DNA of 64,000 nt from Catenuloplanes atrovinosus (lineage in GTDB: Bacteria; Actinomycetota; Actinomycetes; Mycobacteriales; Micromonosporaceae): contig NZ_JAVDYB010000001.1 in the NCBI RefSeq assembly GCF_031458235.1, positions 1,447,001 to 1,511,000 on the forward strand. The letters run 5' to 3'. Under the pieces are notes generated by a model. It saw only the letters and a list, made by a program, of their open reading frames with translations. It did not search any database and was not told the origin of the DNA. Position 1 is the first letter of the stretch. Each line of letters begins with the position of its first letter. The translations under genes were made by a program, and so were the position numbers. This document shows, one piece after another, positions 32,157 through 50,235 of this stretch.

Positions 32157-33712
32157 CCGGCCGGGTGCAGCGGCCGGAGCGGCTGGCCGCCGTCTCCGCC
32201 ACCGGGCTGGCGGACCGCCGCGACGTGCCCGGCCTGGACCGGCTGGCCCGGCTCGCGTCCCGGCTGCTCGGCACGCCCACCACCCTGGTCTCGCTGGTCA
32301 CCGCGGACCGTCAGGTCTTCCCCGGCCGGGTCGGGATGGAGGTGGGCGGGACCCCGCTCTCCCACTCGTTCTGCCAATACGTGGTCGCGGACGACGAGCC
32401 GCTGGTCGTGACGGACGCGCGCGCCGATCCGCGACTCAGCGACAACCTGGCCATCCCGGACCTGGGCGTGATCGCGTACGCCGGCATACCGATCCGGGTG
32501 GACGGCGAGACGCTCGGCGCGTTCTGTGCGATCGACTCCCGGCCGCGTGCCTGGACCGGCACCGACCTGGCCGTGCTGGAGGACCTGACCGCCGCGGTGG
32601 AGTCGGAGATCGCGCTGAGCCTGGCCGCCCGCGACGCGGAGCGGTCCGCCGCCGCGTTCGCGGCCGTGCTGGACGTGGCGCACGACGCGTTCGTCTCCAT
32701 CGCGCCGGACGGCGTGGTCGTGGAGTGGAACCAGGCCGCCGAGGCGATGTTCGGCTGGTCGCGCGCGGAGGCGACCGGCCGCGAGCTGACCGGCCTGATC
32801 ATCCCGCCCGAGTACCACGCCGCGCACGACGCCGGCCTGATCCGGGTGCGGGCCACCGGCGTCTCCGCGCTGGCCGGCCGGCGCGTCGAGCTGACCGGGC
32901 AGCACCGCACCGGCCGCCGCTTCCCGGTGGAGCTGACGCTCCAGGTCACGGCCGGCCATTCGGGACTGCGCCTGCACGGCTTCCTGCGCGACATCAGCGA
33001 GCGGCGCGCGGCCGAGGACGCGCTCACCGACCGCAACCGCCGGCTGGAGCAGGCCAACCTGCTCAAGCTCGACCTGATGGGCATGCTCTCGCACGACATC
33101 GGCACGCCGCTGGCCACCATCATCGGGTACGGCGAGGTGCTCGCCGAATCGCTGAGCGAGCCACGCCAGCAGACCATCCTGGACAAGATCCTGAACGGGG
33201 CCCGCCGGATCGACCAGCTCCGCCAGAACGTGCTGGCCATGTGCACGATCGACGCCGACCGCCTGCAGGCCCGCCGCGAGCCGGTGCCGCTGGCGCCCGC
33301 GCTCCGGGAGGCGCTGCTCGCCGCGGACCTGGCCGTGCCGGTCGCCTGCCCGCCCGGCGTCACCGTGCTGGTCAACCCGGCGCACCTGCAACAGATCGTG
33401 GTCAACTTCCTGAGCAACGCGGCCAAGTACGGCGGCGGCCCGACGCTGATCGCCGTGACCGCCGGCGAGGACGCCGTCGGCGTCTCCATCCACGACGAGG
33501 GCCCCGGCGTGCCCGCGGCGATGCGCGCGCACCTCTTCGAGCGCTACACCCGCGCGGCCGGCGTCACCGCGAAGGGCCACGGCCTGGGCCTGCACATCGT
33601 GGCCAGCCTCGCCGAGGCCAACGGCGGCTCGGTGTCGCACCGCGACAACACGCCGGCCGGCAGCGTCTTCACGCTCACTCTCCAGCCGGCCCGGCCGGAG
33701 CCCGGCCACTGA
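32153..33712 (+). CDS. GAF-PAS sensor histidine kinase
   Basis: A 519-residue cytoplasmic kinase translationally coupled to the previous one. Order: GAF (about 15-155; VSLVTADRQVFPGRVGM), PAS (about 165-285; AHDAFVSIAPDGVVVEWNQA and FLRDISERRAAEDALTDRN), an H-box with His in LMGMLSHDIGTPLATIIGYG (DI replaces the usual EL), then HATPase motifs (VVNFLSNAAKYGGG, DEGPGVPAAMR, GHGLGLHIVASL). The start is GTG 32153; GTG 32147 is also in frame. The paired GAF kinases may heterodimerise or form a relay. The 3' end overlaps the convergent TetR gene by 38 bp. Confidence 0.9.
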   Translation: MTGRVQRPERLAAVSATGLADRRDVPGLDRLARLASRLLGTPTTLVSLVTADRQVFPGRVGMEVGGTPLSHSFCQYVVADDEPLVVTDARADPRLSDNLAIPDLGVIAYAGIPIRVDGETLGAFCAIDSRPRAWTGTDLAVLEDLTAAVESEIALSLAARDAERSAAAFAAVLDVAHDAFVSIAPDGVVVEWNQAAEAMFGWSRAEATGRELTGLIIPPEYHAAHDAGLIRVRATGVSALAGRRVELTGQHRTGRRFPVELTLQVTAGHSGLRLHGFLRDISERRAAEDALTDRNRRLEQANLLKLDLMGMLSHDIGTPLATIIGYGEVLAESLSEPRQQTILDKILNGARRIDQLRQNVLAMCTIDADRLQARREPVPLAPALREALLAADLAVPVACPPGVTVLVNPAHLQQIVVNFLSNAAKYGGGPTLIAVTAGEDAVGVSIHDEGPGVPAAMRAHLFERYTRAAGVTAKGHGLGLHIVASLAEANGGSVSHRDNTPAGSVFTLTLQPARPEPGH

Positions 33713-34445
33713 CCCCGGCCAGCCACGCCTCCAGCCCGTCCAGGATGCGGTCCAGGCCGAACGCGAAGTTCTCGTCCCAGGCGGAGGCGTCCATCGGCAC
33801 GGCGCCGACCGACTCGCGCCACGCCCGGTGGTGCGGATAGTCGTCGCCGACCCGGTCCAGATAGGGCGTGACCCGCTCGGTGACCTCCGCCGGCGTCAGC
33901 CCGGACGCCGCCGTGCCGGCCGAGACCGCGGCGGTGGCCAGCGCCGCCCCGATGGAGTGGTTGGTGATCACCGAGCTGGCGTGCGACAGCGCCAGCCCCT
34001 CGAAGCCGCTCGCGACCAGCAGCGCCACGATCCGGTCGCCGACGCGCAGCGCGTTCGGCCCCAGGTTGGGGCGGGTGCCCAGCAGCGGGATCGCCCACGG
34101 GTGGCGCAGCAGCATGGCGCGCAGGCCGGTGGCGTACACGGACGCGCCGATCCGGAAGCTGACGTCGCCCGGCTCCGGGACGTAGAGCTCGCCCATGATC
34201 TCGTCGACCGCCAGCTCGAGCAGCTCGGTCTTGTTCGTCACGTGCCAGTAGAGCGACGTGGCGCCGGAGCCGAGCCGGGTGCCCAGCCGCCGCATGCTCA
34301 GGCCCTCGGCGCCCTCGGCGTCGAGCAGCTCGATCGCGGTGCGCACGATCTGCTCGCGGGTGAGCGTGGGCGCGCCGCCGCGGGTGCGGGCCGGCGGCCG
34401 CAGCCAGACCGAGTCGGTGTACGGATCGGACTTCTGCGGCGCCAT
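33675..34445 (-). CDS. TetR-family regulator of the adjacent MFS gene
   Basis: A 256-residue TetR protein. The helix-turn-helix is at about 25-75 (LTREQIVRTAIELLDAEGAE; MRRLGTRLGSGATSLYWHV), followed by the long TetR_C-type ligand domain. The N-terminal extension before the helix-turn-helix is Pro/Arg rich. It is divergent from a drug-exporter gene with a dyad at that gene's start, so it most likely represses it and responds to an exported compound. TAGACT (34458-34453 on this strand) precedes the ATG by 7 nt, so it seems leaderless. Confidence 0.9.
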   Translation of the reverse strand: MAPQKSDPYTDSVWLRPPARTRGGAPTLTREQIVRTAIELLDAEGAEGLSMRRLGTRLGSGATSLYWHVTNKTELLELAVDEIMGELYVPEPGDVSFRIGASVYATGLRAMLLRHPWAIPLLGTRPNLGPNALRVGDRIVALLVASGFEGLALSHASSVITNHSIGAALATAAVSAGTAASGLTPAEVTERVTPYLDRVGDDYPHHRAWRESVGAVPMDASAWDENFAFGLDRILDGLEAWLAGVSGRAPAGPAGE

Positions 34446-34491
34446 GCCGCCCAGTCTACGGCCGCGACACACCGGCAACAGACCTCGATGG

Positions 34492-34519
34492 TACGGTGTT
34501 CGAGTGACTAGTACACCGT
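34492..34519. promoter_or_regulatory. TetR-type operator over MFS promoter and start
   Basis: ACGGTGT (34493-34499), 13 bp, ACACCGT (34513-34519) is a perfect 7-bp dyad. The left arm overlaps the -10 box TACGGT (34492-34497) and the dyad spans the GTG start at 34504. A bound repressor would cover both promoter and start of a leaderless mRNA. Assignment to the divergent TetR protein is by position. Confidence 0.6.
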
Positions 34520-36048
34520 TCGAGAAGCCGCGTGATCCACGGCGCTGGGTGATCCTCGGCGTCCTCTGCCTGAGCCTGCTCGTGGTCGTCATCGACAACA
34601 TGGTGCTCACCATCGCGATCCCGTCCCTGATCAGCGACCTGGGCGCGAGCACCGCCGAGGTGCAGTGGATCGTCGACGCGTACATCCTGGTCTTCGCGGG
34701 CCTCCTGCTCACCGCCGGCTCGCTCTCCGACCGCTACGGGCGGCGGCGCGGCCTGATCATCGGCCTGGTGGTGTTCGGCGGCGCGTCCGTGCTGGCCACG
34801 CTGGCCCGCACGCCGGAGCAGCTGATCGCGGTGCGCGGCCTGATGGGCGCGGGCGCCGCCTTCCTGATGCCGGGCACGCTCTCCGTGCTCACCACCGTCT
34901 TCGCCGAGGACGAGCGGAAGAAGGCGATCGCGATCTGGAGCTCCGTGCTGATGCTCGCCTCGCTCGGCGGCCCCACGCTCGGCGGCCTGCTGCTGGAGCA
35001 CTACTGGTGGGGCTCGGTCTTCCTGCTCAACGTGCCGATCGCGGCGCTCGGCATCGTCGCCGCGTGGCTGCTCATCCCGGAGTCGCGCGGGCCCGCGTCC
35101 CGGCCGGACGTGCTCGGCGCGCTGCTCTCCACCGCCGGGATGGCCGCGCTGGTCTGGGGCGTGATCAACGTGGCGTCGCACGGGTGGGCCGCGGGCCGTA
35201 CCGTCGCGGGCTTCGCGCTCGGCGCCGCGCTGCTGGCAGCGTTCGTGTGGTGGGAGCGCCGGGCACCCGAGCCGATGCTGCCGCTGTCGCTGTTCCGCGA
35301 CCGTGACTTCGGCGGCGCCAGCCTCTCCATCGTGCTGCTGTCCTTCTCGGCCGGCGGCATGATGCTCGCGCTCACCCAATACCTGCAGTTCGTCCTCGGG
35401 TACGGCCCGATGCGCGCCGGCCTCGCCTTCATCCCGATGCTGGTCACCACCATGGTCTTCAACGGCATCGGCGTGGTCGTCGACAGGCGGTCCGGGGCCC
35501 GCGTCGCCATCGCGGCCGGCCTGCTGCTGATGGCCGCCGGCTTCACGATCCTGGCCACGACCGGCCCGGACGACGGCTACCTCAGGCTGGCGCTGGCGTT
35601 CGTGGTGATGGGCGCGGGCAGCGGCATCGCGGCCCCGCCCGCGGTCGGCACGCTGCTCGGCGCGCTCCCGCCCGACCGCGCCGGCGTCGGCTCCGCGGTC
35701 AACGACACCGTGCAGCAGGTCGGCGCCGCGCTCAGCGTCGCCGTCATCGGCACGGTGCTGACCACGGTCTACGGCTCCGCGATGCCGGGCGACGCGGCCG
35801 AACCGGCACGCCGCTCGATCGGCGAGGCGCTCTCCGTCGCCGCCACCACCGGCGACGCGGCCCTGATCACGGCGGCCCGCGAGGCCTTCGTCGCCGCGCT
35901 CTCCGCCACCTCGTGGCTCGGCGTCATCGGCGCCACCGCCGCGGCCGGCGTGGCCGCCACGGTCCTGCGCGCCAAGCCCACCCCTCCTCCACCGGCGTCC
36001 GCGCCGGAGCCGGCGTCCGCGCCGGAGTCGGCCTCGGCGCGGGAGTAG
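34504..36048 (+). CDS. DHA2-type MFS drug exporter
   Basis: A 514-residue transporter with about 14 membrane helices and the MFS motif A region (LTAGSLSDRYGRRRGLIIGL) and motif-C-like LASLGGPTLGGLLLEHYWWG. It belongs to the EmrB/QacA-like drug:H+ antiporter family and its best clue to regulation is the divergent TetR gene. The last 20 residues (PASAPEPASAPESASARE) are hexapeptide repeats encoded by three 18-bp units. The TAG stop occupies the first codon of what would be the next 18-bp unit, and the repeat array carries on downstream. GTG start, apparently leaderless. Confidence 0.92.
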   Translation: MTSTPFEKPRDPRRWVILGVLCLSLLVVVIDNMVLTIAIPSLISDLGASTAEVQWIVDAYILVFAGLLLTAGSLSDRYGRRRGLIIGLVVFGGASVLATLARTPEQLIAVRGLMGAGAAFLMPGTLSVLTTVFAEDERKKAIAIWSSVLMLASLGGPTLGGLLLEHYWWGSVFLLNVPIAALGIVAAWLLIPESRGPASRPDVLGALLSTAGMAALVWGVINVASHGWAAGRTVAGFALGAALLAAFVWWERRAPEPMLPLSLFRDRDFGGASLSIVLLSFSAGGMMLALTQYLQFVLGYGPMRAGLAFIPMLVTTMVFNGIGVVVDRRSGARVAIAAGLLLMAAGFTILATTGPDDGYLRLALAFVVMGAGSGIAAPPAVGTLLGALPPDRAGVGSAVNDTVQQVGAALSVAVIGTVLTTVYGSAMPGDAAEPARRSIGEALSVAATTGDAALITAAREAFVAALSATSWLGVIGATAAAGVAATVLRAKPTPPPPASAPEPASAPESASARE

Positions 36049-36760
36049 GCCGCCGCGCTGGAGGCGGGCTTCGCGCCGGGTTCGGTTTCCGCGTTGGAGA
36101 CGGGTCTTATGTCGCGTTCGGCTCCCGCGTCCAGGTCGGCTTCCGCGTCCGAGGCGGGCCTTCGCGTCGCATTCGGCTTTCGTGCCGGGGTCGGTTTTCG
36201 CGCGGGCGTCGGTTCCCGTGCCGGGTCGGCTTTCGCGCGGGAGTCGGTTTCCGTGCCGGGGTCGGCTTTCGTGCCGGGTCGGCTTTCGCGCGGGAGTCGG
36301 TTTCCGTGCCGGGGTCGGCTTTCGTGCCGGGTCGGCTTTCGCGCGGGAGTCGGTTTCCGTGCCGGGGTCGGCTTTCGTGCCGGGTCGGCTTTCGCGCGGG
36401 AGTCGGTTTCCGTGCCGGGGTCGGCTTTCGTGCCGGGTCGGCTTTCGCGCGGGAGTCGGTTTCCGTGCCGGGGTCGGCTTTCGTGCCGGGTCGGCTTTCG
36501 CGCGGGAGTCGGTTTCCGTGCCGGGGTCGGCTTTCGTGCCGGGGCCGACCTTCGCGTGGGGAGTCGGCTTTCGTGCCGGGGTCGGCTTTCGCGCGGGGGT
36601 CGGCTTTCGCGCGGGAGTCGGCTTTCGCGCGGGAGTCGGCTTTCGTGTCGGAGGCGGGCCTTGCGCCGGAGGCCGGTGTCCCCACCCGGGTCGGCTTCCG
36701 GGCCGGAGGCGGGTCTCGCGTCGGAGCCGGCCCGCGGCCGAGGCCGCGCCCGGCACACGC
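35992..36760. repeat. 18/53-bp minisatellite at the 3' end of the MFS gene
   Basis: From 35992 the sequence is built of 18-bp units (type TCGGCTTTCGCGCGGGAG). The first three encode the end of the MFS protein; the rest follow its stop. From 36226 to 36490 the array becomes five identical 53-bp units (18+18+17 bp), and a sixth runs to 36543 before the units become diverged again up to about 36760. Because 53 is not a multiple of 3, the reading frame rotates in each unit and all frames stay open, which explains long meaningless open frames here. The 774 bp from 36049 to 36822 contain no gene I can support. Confidence 0.9.
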
Positions 36761-36822
36761 GACGAACCGGCCCGCCGTGATCCGGCGGGCCGGGAGGTGA
36801 TCGACGCGGCCGGTCGCGGCGG

Positions 36823-37749
36823 TCAGGCGGGCGTGGTGACCGCCGCGTCGCGGGTGGCGGGGAGCGTCTCCGGGACCTCGTCGCCGGCCGGCGCGGAGGG
36901 GCGGGCCGGGCGGGTGGACAGCCAGCAGCCGGAGGCGATCAGGGCGAAGCCGGCCACCGTGGCGACGCCGATCGGCTCGCCGAGCAGCGCGACGCCGAGC
37001 AGCACCGCGACCACCGGGTTGACGTAGGTGACCAGGCCGGCGCGGGACGGGCCGGCCTCCGCGATCAGGCCGTAGAAGGCGAGCAGCGCGACCGCGGTGC
37101 AGAGCACGCCGAGCCCGGCCAGCGCCAGCCAGGACACCGGCCGTACCGGCGCGACCGGCAGCGCGAACAGCGCGAACGGCAGCAGCACCAGCGAGCTGAT
37201 CGTGGTGGTGCCGGCGGTCAGCGCGACCGGCGGCACGTCCGCGGCCCAGCGCTGCACCAGGATGGTCGCGACCGCGTAGCCGATCGTGGCCAGCAGCACC
37301 ATGCCGGCGCCGATCAGGCCCAGCCGGTCGCCGGAGATGTCCGCGCCGACCAGCACCGCGACGCCGGCGAAGCCCAGGCCCAGGCCGGCGGCCCGGCCGA
37401 GGCTGAGCGGCTCGGTGCGCAGCAGGAGCAGCGTGACCACGGCCGGCTCGATCGCGATCAGCAGCGCGGTCAGCGAGGAGCTGATGTGCACCTCGCCGTA
37501 CGTGATGAGCAGGAACGGGCCGACGATGTGCACGAACGAGATGGTGGTGATCACCAGCAGCCGCCCGCGCAGCGCGGTGAGCACGCCGCGCGCGGCCGCG
37601 ATCGGCAGCAGCACCAGCGCGGCGATGGCGAGCCGGCCGAAGACCACCGCCAGCGGCGACAGGTCCTCGATCGCCACCTTGATCAGTAGGTACGGCATCC
37701 CCCACAGCAGGGAGACGGTGAGGAAGAGAAACCAGGCACGTCTGTTCAC
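36823..37749 (-). CDS. EamA-family (DMT) transporter
   Basis: A 308-residue protein with ten membrane helices and two EamA repeats (first WFLFLTVSLLWGMPYLLIKV; second starts near GMVLLATIGYAVATILVQRW, with the typical TYVNPVVAVLLGVALLGEP). Members export amino acids, metabolites or drugs. GTG 37749 follows GAGAGG. It is divergent from a LysR gene with a dyad between them, suggesting LysR control. Confidence 0.9.
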   Translation of the reverse strand: MNRRAWFLFLTVSLLWGMPYLLIKVAIEDLSPLAVVFGRLAIAALVLLPIAAARGVLTALRGRLLVITTISFVHIVGPFLLITYGEVHISSSLTALLIAIEPAVVTLLLLRTEPLSLGRAAGLGLGFAGVAVLVGADISGDRLGLIGAGMVLLATIGYAVATILVQRWAADVPPVALTAGTTTISSLVLLPFALFALPVAPVRPVSWLALAGLGVLCTAVALLAFYGLIAEAGPSRAGLVTYVNPVVAVLLGVALLGEPIGVATVAGFALIASGCWLSTRPARPSAPAGDEVPETLPATRDAAVTTPA

Positions 37750-37767
37750 GACGTCAGCCTCTCGCCG

Positions 37768-37784
37768 TACCGTTGTAAGCGGTA
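37768..37784. promoter_or_regulatory. Candidate LysR operator
   Basis: TACCG (37768-37772), 7 bp, CGGTA (37780-37784) forms a perfect dyad with the T-N11-A spacing expected of LysR-type recognition sites, in the 70-bp gap between the divergent EamA and LysR genes. Confidence 0.55.
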
Positions 37785-37819
37785 GTGATGATTCGCTGGG
37801 GTTGTTTTAAGGAGCACTG

Positions 37820-38719
37820 ATGATCGACGTGCACCGGCTCAGGGTACTGCGCGAGGTGGCGCGGCACGGCAGCTTCAACCGCGCGGCGGTCGCGCTGCGG
37901 ATGACCGCGTCCGCGGTCTCCCAGCAGATCGCCGCGCTGGAGCGCTCGGTCGGCACCCCGGTCGTCGCGCGCAGCACGCGCGGTGTGCGGCTGACCGACG
38001 CGGGCCTGATCCTGACCGAGACCGCGGACGCGGTCACCGCGGAGCTGGATCGGGCCGTGCACGACCTGGCCCGGCTGTCCGGCGACGCGGACCGGCACCT
38101 CGCGGTCGCCACGTTCACCAGCGGCGGGCAGCGGCTGCTGCCGCCCGCGCTCGGCCGGTTCCACCGCGAGCACCCGGACGTGCTGCTCAACGTGGTGGAG
38201 GCGGACACCGAGGAGAGCCTGCCGCGGGTGAGCACCGGGGAGGCGGATCTGGCGATCGCGTACCACTTCGACGGCCCGCCGCCGTCCGTGCCGGGCCTGG
38301 CGTGGACGCCGCTGCTCGACGATCCGATGTGGGTGGTGCTGCCGTCCGGCCATCCGATGGCCGGCCGGGACACGGTCACGCTCGGCGAACTGGCCGAGGA
38401 GCGCTGGATCCTCGGCTGCGTCGGCCTCGACGACATGCTCGGGCAGCACGCGGCGCTGGCCGGGTTCGCGCCGGTGATCGCGTGCCGGAGCACCGACTAC
38501 GTGTTCGCGCAGTCGATGGTCCGGGCCGGCATCGGCATCAGCCTGGTGCCGCAGGTGGCGCTGGCCGCCGACCGCGGCGGCCTGTCCGTGGTGCCGCTGA
38601 TGGGCCCGGGCCCGATCCGGTACGTGGGTGTGGCCACGCCGCGGCGGCGGGTGCGCCCGGTGGCGGCCGCGCTGCTGCGGGCGCTGCAGGAGACGGTCGC
38701 GGGGCTGCCGGTCGCTTGA
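37820..38719 (+). CDS. LysR-family transcriptional regulator
   Basis: A 299-residue LysR protein: helix-turn-helix in residues 1-60 (VARHGSFNRAAVALRMTASAVSQQ), followed by a periplasmic-binding-like effector domain (HLAVATFTSGGQRLLPPALG). AAGGAG sits 5 nt before ATG 37820. The divergent EamA transporter is the likely target; the effector may be the transported compound. Confidence 0.93.
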   Translation: MIDVHRLRVLREVARHGSFNRAAVALRMTASAVSQQIAALERSVGTPVVARSTRGVRLTDAGLILTETADAVTAELDRAVHDLARLSGDADRHLAVATFTSGGQRLLPPALGRFHREHPDVLLNVVEADTEESLPRVSTGEADLAIAYHFDGPPPSVPGLAWTPLLDDPMWVVLPSGHPMAGRDTVTLGELAEERWILGCVGLDDMLGQHAALAGFAPVIACRSTDYVFAQSMVRAGIGISLVPQVALAADRGGLSVVPLMGPGPIRYVGVATPRRRVRPVAAALLRALQETVAGLPVA

Positions 38720-49522: not shown

Positions 49523-49647
49523 TCATTGTGCAGCCCTCCCACTCTCCCGATCCTCGCCCCCACCCGTCAAGCCACCCCCAGTGATCTTGCTCGCCCTCCC
49601 CACCCTCGCCTCTGGTCGCCTCATCTCTGATCGCCTCGCCTCTGGTC

Positions 49648-49762
49648 GCGTCGCCACGCCATGCGTCGCCAAGCCATGCGTCGCCACGCCACGCGTCGCC
49701 ACGCCACGCCACGCCACGCGTCGCCACGCCACGCGTCGCCACGCCACGCGTCGCCTCCCGCC
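49648..49762. repeat. 15-bp tandem array between cobN and cobG
   Basis: Six or so units of GCGTCGCCACGCCAC (49648-49762), with two early variants and one 10-bp insertion. It lies just beyond the cobN riboswitch. It contains no convincing gene, although frames stay open because the unit is a multiple of 3. Confidence 0.8.
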
Positions 49763-50007: not shown

Positions 50008-50069
50008 CGAGACTGCTGAGCGTGTCCCGCCGAAGTGGCGGCTTCGCCCGCGTTGCGTCCTGCGCCCAC

Positions 50070-50235
50070 GCTGGCGTGCCTCGCTCACGCTGGCGTGCCT
50101 CGCTCACGCTGGCGTGCCGCGCTCACGCTGGCGTGCCGCGCTCACGCTGGCGTGCCTCGCTCACGCTGGCGTGCCTCGCTCACGCTGGCGTGCCTCGCCC
50201 ACGCTGACGTGCCGCGCCCACGCTGACGTGTGGCT
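50070..50235. repeat. 19-bp dyad repeats upstream of cobG
   Basis: About eight and a half tandem copies of a 19-bp unit (GCTGGCGTGCCTCGCTCAC, starting at 50070, 50089, 50108 and so on). Every unit junction forms the hyphenated dyad CACGC-TG-GCGTG, so the array is a row of evenly spaced inverted repeats, two helical turns minus about 2 bp apart. It ends about 140 bp before the cobG promoter. No gene is supported between 49329 and 50388. Confidence 0.9.

Follow-up and report, generated by a model that had tools for sequence, protein, structure and literature searches.

At the 3' end of an MFS exporter gene, an array of short tandem repeats begins inside the coding sequence and continues through the intergenic gap that follows. 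In an earlier note on this DNA no described element of this kind was known to its author, and a hypervariable locus affecting the exporter tail or the 3' end of the mRNA was proposed. The locus therefore raises the question of whether the array is a new kind of element with a role at the exporter gene, or a bacterial minisatellite of a known kind. Throughout, the window is the whole 64-kb stretch of DNA that was analysed.

Anatomy of the array and its surroundings

The locus comprises, in order, TetR (minus strand), MFS exporter (plus strand), EamA transporter (minus strand) and a further gene on the plus strand, which we take to be a LysR-type regulator. The MFS gene scored 228.3 bits against the NCBIfam EmrB subfamily model, slightly below its cut-off of 230.2 bits, and a TetR gene is its neighbour in G003, G035 and G032 as well. 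The features of the locus are as follows (no strand is assigned where none is given).

33675-34424, minus strand: TetR-family regulator, divergent from the MFS gene, start inferred (Pfam TetR_C_1 and TetR_N)
34504-36048, plus strand: MFS exporter gene, DHA2/EmrB-like, start inferred (Pfam MFS_1, 166.8 bits)
35993-36048, plus strand: part of the array inside the MFS gene, three 18-bp units, hexapeptides PASAPE, PASAPE and SASARE (sequence and segmentation)
36049-36216: left arm of the array, degenerate, with diverged units of 17-19 bp (segmentation)
36217-36543: core, perfect 53-bp period over 327 bp, six exact 53-mers (segmentation)
36544-36731: right arm, 18-bp units, core-like at first and then degenerate (TRF and segmentation)
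36767-36793: perfect hairpin with an 11-bp stem, terminator-like, 29 bp past the EamA stop codon (sequence)
36823-37749, minus strand: EamA-family transporter gene, convergent with the MFS gene (Pfam EamA, 123.7 bits)

Segmentation divided the array into 41 head-to-tail units of approximately 18 bp each (35993-36727), of which 32 were 18 bp, six were 17 bp and three were 19 bp in length. Two periods were reported by TRF, one of 18 bp (36000-36731, 40.8 copies, 72% matches, score 537) and one of 53 bp (36173-36651, 9.0 copies, 92% matches, score 763); the right arm ends at 36731 by TRF and at 36727 by segmentation. Among 300 shuffles of 35992-36760 that preserved dinucleotides, the TRF score reached 109 at most, compared to 763 for the real sequence, which excludes a chance origin of the array.

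The last 54 coding bases of the MFS gene consist of three in-frame 18-bp units, followed by the stop codon at 36046-36048, and the encoded protein ends in PPPPASAPEPASAPESASARE. The earlier description of the units as forming the end of the gene and a hexapeptide tail was thus borne out, as was the continuation of the repeat beyond the stop codon, for which approximately 680 bp was measured (about 700 bp in the earlier note). The gap between the MFS and EamA genes is 774 bp long, and all units of the array that are outside the MFS gene lie within it. The outermost parts of both arms are diverged, while the perfect core begins 168 bp past the MFS stop codon. The exact 53-mer occurs six times (starting at 36226, 36279, 36332, 36385, 36438 and 36491), so that the identity of the units and the 53-bp period given previously were correct and the count of five was not. 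Each 53-mer of the core is made up of 18+18+17 bp, i.e. three 18-bp units minus one G: the 17-mer CGGCTTTCGTGCCGGGT is the 18-mer CGGCTTTCGTGCCGGGGT (found at 36174 and 36565) with one G fewer in the GGGG run. In the last 53-mer the third unit runs into the right arm and was accordingly segmented as 18 bp.

An extreme strand asymmetry was also observed in the core (36173-36651), where the plus strand is 2.1% A and 25.9% T; in the window as a whole the two bases account for 12.7% and 13.0%. Elsewhere in the genome, too, some arrays are nearly A-free or T-free on one strand.

Distribution of the array and of comparable arrays

The earlier note had suggested that the genome be searched for the repeat units. 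In a pattern search of the chromosome, which is a single contig of 8.9 Mb, 12 of 12 matches fell inside the array, and the other DNA matches in the chromosome were five weak ones of 26-77 bp; the array is a single locus. Among 299 other genomes of the family, six had matches to the core at E<=1e-8, with 70-79% identity, and these were arrays of 15-18-bp units, including two with a higher-order period of 54 bp (L194) and 51 bp (L192). When two unrelated arrays of the same genome were used as a control at the same threshold, 3 and 20 of the 299 genomes were matched; for this reason the matches to the core were taken as GC-rich array background, and a shared repeat family was rejected. Plasmid and phage searches with the array gave no match, and no exact match to one 27-base unit junction was found in viral contigs.

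The nearest relative compared, which belongs to the same genus (G003), shares all four genes and their order with the window, at a DNA identity of 86% over 33717-35978 and 84% over 36886-38709. Its gap between the MFS and EamA genes is 164 bp from stop to stop and is without the array. Immediately past the MFS stop codon, this gap (L127 8404-8570) holds two very strong hairpins (the plus-strand stretches folded reach -62.4 and -80.8 kcal/mol, and both strands give stable structures), which have no close counterpart in the window. A search of the genus at E<=1e-5 gave one match in the G003 genome (70%), to an 18-bp array at an unrelated place (498527-498675). In three other congeners compared, the best matches to the MFS protein were 43-45% identical and no close orthologue was found.

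Homologous loci were also surveyed, 91 of which were entered. Six were removed, one for having no stop codon (L059) and five for wrong orientation (L101, L103, L104, L106 and L107), leaving 85 readable loci. A period of 17, 18 or 53 bp was found at none of the 85, where only the TRF array with the highest score in the 900 bp downstream was taken into account at each locus. The 85 include G003 itself (L098), a repeated organism (L099, with the same tail as L031), a locus with only 46 bp downstream (L076) and one in which the stop is doubtful, in an odd frame of 610 residues (L069). Best downstream arrays of score 150 or above were seen at three loci, with periods of 23 bp (L017), 62 bp (L042) and 20 bp (L087).

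As G003 is without the array and such a period is absent from the 85 loci, the array most likely postdates the split from G003, with the polarity (gain in this lineage as against loss in G003) read from the one relative that keeps this gene order. Set against the 14-16% divergence of the flanks, the identical core would be either young or under ongoing homogenisation. The absence of the array from the nearest relative compared agrees with the earlier reading of the identical units as a product of recent amplification or homogenisation.

Comparable arrays were sought in a sample of the same genome (60 stretches of 20 kb, or 1.2 Mb). Nine TRF arrays with a score of at least 500 were identified, two in called genes, three in an open frame of 4162 codons (L139) and the following four, which are apparently non-coding.

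L131 11201: 105 bp x 3.1, TRF score of at least 500
L189 3591: 27 bp x 12.6, TRF score of at least 500
L173 9048: 18 bp x 23.2, TRF score of at least 500
L185 16978: 119 bp x 2.5, inside an open frame of 620 codons and possibly coding

Extrapolation from the sample suggests some thirty comparable, apparently non-coding arrays in the chromosome. The array of the window has the highest score among those that are apparently non-coding (763 versus 590 for the next in the sample) and is at the top of its class, not out of it. A total of 19 arrays called non-coding (score of at least 150 and at least 3 copies, that of the window included) were located in five convergent, ten co-directional and four divergent gaps; as convergent gaps contain 25% of intergenic bases, there was no enrichment of the 19 arrays in them. 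The gene calls for this count were made with a simple codon-usage script, which classed the L139 arrays as intergenic despite the 4162-codon open frame; three rows were excluded from the non-coding arrays of score 500 or above for this reason, while two L139 arrays remain among the 19, and without them the convergent share is 5 of 17.

The gap at L173 9048-9709 (G000 6029048-6029709) contains two arrays, first the 18-bp x 23 one and then one of 7 bp x 21 with 98% matches. G001 and G004 have next to nothing at this site, with flanks 24 and 36 bp apart, and in G002 and G003 it holds 1.2-1.8 kb without a match at E<=1e-20; the L173 array is lineage-specific too. A 400-kb sample of G003 also contained arrays, none of them with a score of 500 or above. 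Within the window, two more arrays were observed in one divergent gap (50063-50230, 19 bp x 8.8, 95% matches; and 49647-49755, 15 bp x 7.6).

Origin of the array and its possible function

A published survey defines bacterial satellites as four or more tandem repeats of 10-200 nt, of which 60% or more are of identical length (PMC6749651). The array has 41 units of 17-19 bp and six exact 53-mers, and 32 of its 41 units (78%) are 18 bp long. Under that definition, and with similar arrays being common in the genome, the view that no element of this kind had been described could not be upheld; the array is of a known kind, young and confined to a single locus. It is restricted to one lineage, as are most families in the survey, and differs from the satellites described there in being non-coding yet starting inside the end of a gene, and in having a higher-order level of 53 bp (PMC6749651). 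The survey lists 38 satellites for Streptomyces coelicolor and 23 for Amycolatopsis mediterranei, which puts actinobacteria within the known range (PMC6749651).

A further likeness is to VNTR3239 (ETR-F), which lies between rnc and fpg in Mycobacterium tuberculosis and is likewise intergenic, composed of identical units (five in that case) with 18-bp sub-repeats, and present in one lineage, the site consisting of only a few bases in species outside that lineage (PMC2734929). VNTR3239 is upstream of a gene and its length is linked to expression there (PMC2734929), whereas the present array lies between two gene ends and is known from sequence. Among the open-licence papers searched, none was found on intergenic tandem repeats in Actinoplanes, and searches on Streptomyces, on convergent-gene terminators and on minisatellites or VNTRs gave nothing nearer among the matches listed.

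Some MIRU loci have units of 53 bp. Mycobacterial MIRUs are described as dispersed elements whose insertion sites are start codons and whose ORF is coupled to the gene that follows (PMC12548453), and their tandem units are of similar size to those seen here, at 40-100 bp (PMC2734929). The array was rejected as a MIRU, as it is not dispersed (all pattern matches being in one array and the other five matches weak) and sits between the ends of two convergent genes and not at a start codon with a coupled ORF. A CRISPR array was also rejected, as the units abut and there are no spacers.

We consider it very probable that the array is an ordinary non-coding GC-rich minisatellite, and a candidate VNTR, which was gained in this lineage once it had separated from G003 and for which no function is needed. 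The starting point would have been the head-to-tail duplication of 18 bp at the MFS 3' end, after which the array would have expanded into the convergent intergenic gap, most likely via replication slippage or unequal exchange. The loss of one G from the GGGG run of one unit (18 to 17 bp) may have been followed by amplification of the three-unit block (18+18+17 = 53 bp) to at least six identical copies, while the edges decayed, exchange presumably being rarer there than in mid-array. A perfect centre with decayed edges is the usual look of an array that has been exchanged in its middle. The effect would be limited to a longer gap and, probably, a longer 3' untranslated region of the MFS transcript. 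As such, the array is a clean example of a bacterial minisatellite that builds a higher-order unit via one lost G, and it could be a strain-typing marker for the species; it would be of greater importance only if the unit number were shown to alter transcript ends. An effect of the array on the 3' end of the mRNA is hypothetical but possible.

Since nothing in the window closely matches the two hairpins of G003, a role of theirs may have passed to the array. It would then have replaced lost terminators and would now serve the convergent MFS and EamA genes as an insulator or 3'-end element, in which long hairpins in the G/U-rich sense transcript slow the polymerase or protect the 3' end and the unit number tunes the effect. 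We regard this as unlikely, and find quite unlikely the fuller proposal of a length-tunable 3' insulator that replaces two conventional terminators, with the unit number setting both the ends of the MFS transcript and the amount of antisense RNA that reaches EamA. The insulator reading is favoured by the weakness of the hairpin at 36767-36793, the only conventional terminator-like structure noted in the gap, for which the stretch 36760-36800 folds at -28.7 kcal/mol, relative to the two strong hairpins of G003. It is also favoured by the RNA of the gap, which folds at -514 kcal/mol on the plus strand (z -7.5) and at -358 kcal/mol on the other strand (z -2.9), each compared to 20 plain shuffles, and by a 22-nt stretch of the 53-bp unit which is fully self-complementary with G-U pairs allowed; the latter was matched by 3 of 150 shuffled units and is suggestive at best as a signal of structure. 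However, plain shuffles destroy the repeats, and five tandem copies of each of 150 shuffled 53-mers were therefore folded as a repeat-preserving control. Against these the fold of the real unit was ordinary (z -1.3 on the plus strand and -1.5 on the minus strand), 13 of the 150 being as stable on each strand, and the strong fold is largely a by-product of tandem repetition. Given this result and the lack of any Rfam match at E<=1 in 33500-38500, a structured RNA was rejected. Terminator-like sites were at chance level (one found, 2.4 expected), and the absence of array enrichment in convergent gaps also argues against an insulator.

An error of assembly, in which the repeats are real and their number is wrong, is very unlikely: tandem repeats are known to cause such errors (PMC6868369), but the chromosome is one contig and the whole array, at approximately 735 bp, is below the typical length of a long read. 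A phase-variable exporter tail, or the hypervariable one of the earlier note, where changes in repeat number would alter the MFS C-terminus, has the three in-frame units at the gene end in its favour. These units, however, belong to the diverged edge of the array while the identical core is well past the stop codon, and the tail beyond the last conserved LR is 25 amino acids long here compared to 24 in the repeat-less G003; units of 18 bp also preserve the frame and so provide no on/off switch. This reading is thus highly improbable. Least credible, with a probability close to negligible, is that the array is coding sequence on either strand (e.g. a 329-amino acid frame on the minus strand). 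Long open frames do span it on both strands, the longest over its middle being 789 codons from stop to stop, but a GC-rich, A-poor repeat leaves many frames open through composition alone. The 17- and 19-bp units shift the frame, the 18-mers are distributed over all three frames (15, 10 and 7 of 32) and no single reading frame is kept through the array; column entropy by position modulo 3 was 1.02, 0.49 and 0.74, which is not decisive alone. In addition, two such frames scanned gave no Pfam match, and G003 is entirely without the array.

A dispersed MIRU-like cassette

Elsewhere in the genome, ATGA junctions of co-directional genes were seen to carry another repeat that has no relation to the array, a dispersed element 74 or 75 bp long. 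The cassette is a 25-codon micro-ORF, typically MSELASESSAQRRP...PA; its ATG shares bases with the TGA that ends the upstream frame, and its TGA does so with the next ATG. Copies occur singly or in tandem runs of up to six; runs spaced at 74 bp chain the micro-ORFs, while those spaced at 75 bp fuse them in frame (e.g. 150 codons in L243). No copy was found in the 64-kb window, and one two-unit cassette read had no match in Pfam. Cassette loci include the following.

L132 965-1206: cassette locus outside the window
L187 15931-16132: cassette locus outside the window
L142 15804-15959: cassette locus outside the window
L146 8241-8394: cassette locus outside the window
L243, L245 and L249: example loci among L242-L261

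At 17 of 20 cassette loci (L242-L261), the ATGA closed an upstream frame of 70 codons or more, and at 16 of the 20 a downstream frame of that minimum length opened at an ATGA or GTGA, although many of these frames run off short loci and such lengths also arise by chance in GC-rich DNA. Three literal cassette strings were absent from the open-licence papers searched, where a search with combined terms also gave nothing related. The anatomy of the cassette resembles that of the mycobacterial MIRUs as set out in PMC12548453, and in our view this MIRU-like cassette merits more attention than the array. A 38-base cassette pattern, allowing up to 3 mismatches, gave 102 copies in the genome, compared to none for the reversed control. 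With a 26-base pattern and up to 2 mismatches, the reversed control of which was found in none of 200 genomes of the family, the cassette was present in 34 of the 200 (its own genome included), with 113 copies here and a maximum of 49 per genome beyond the genus.
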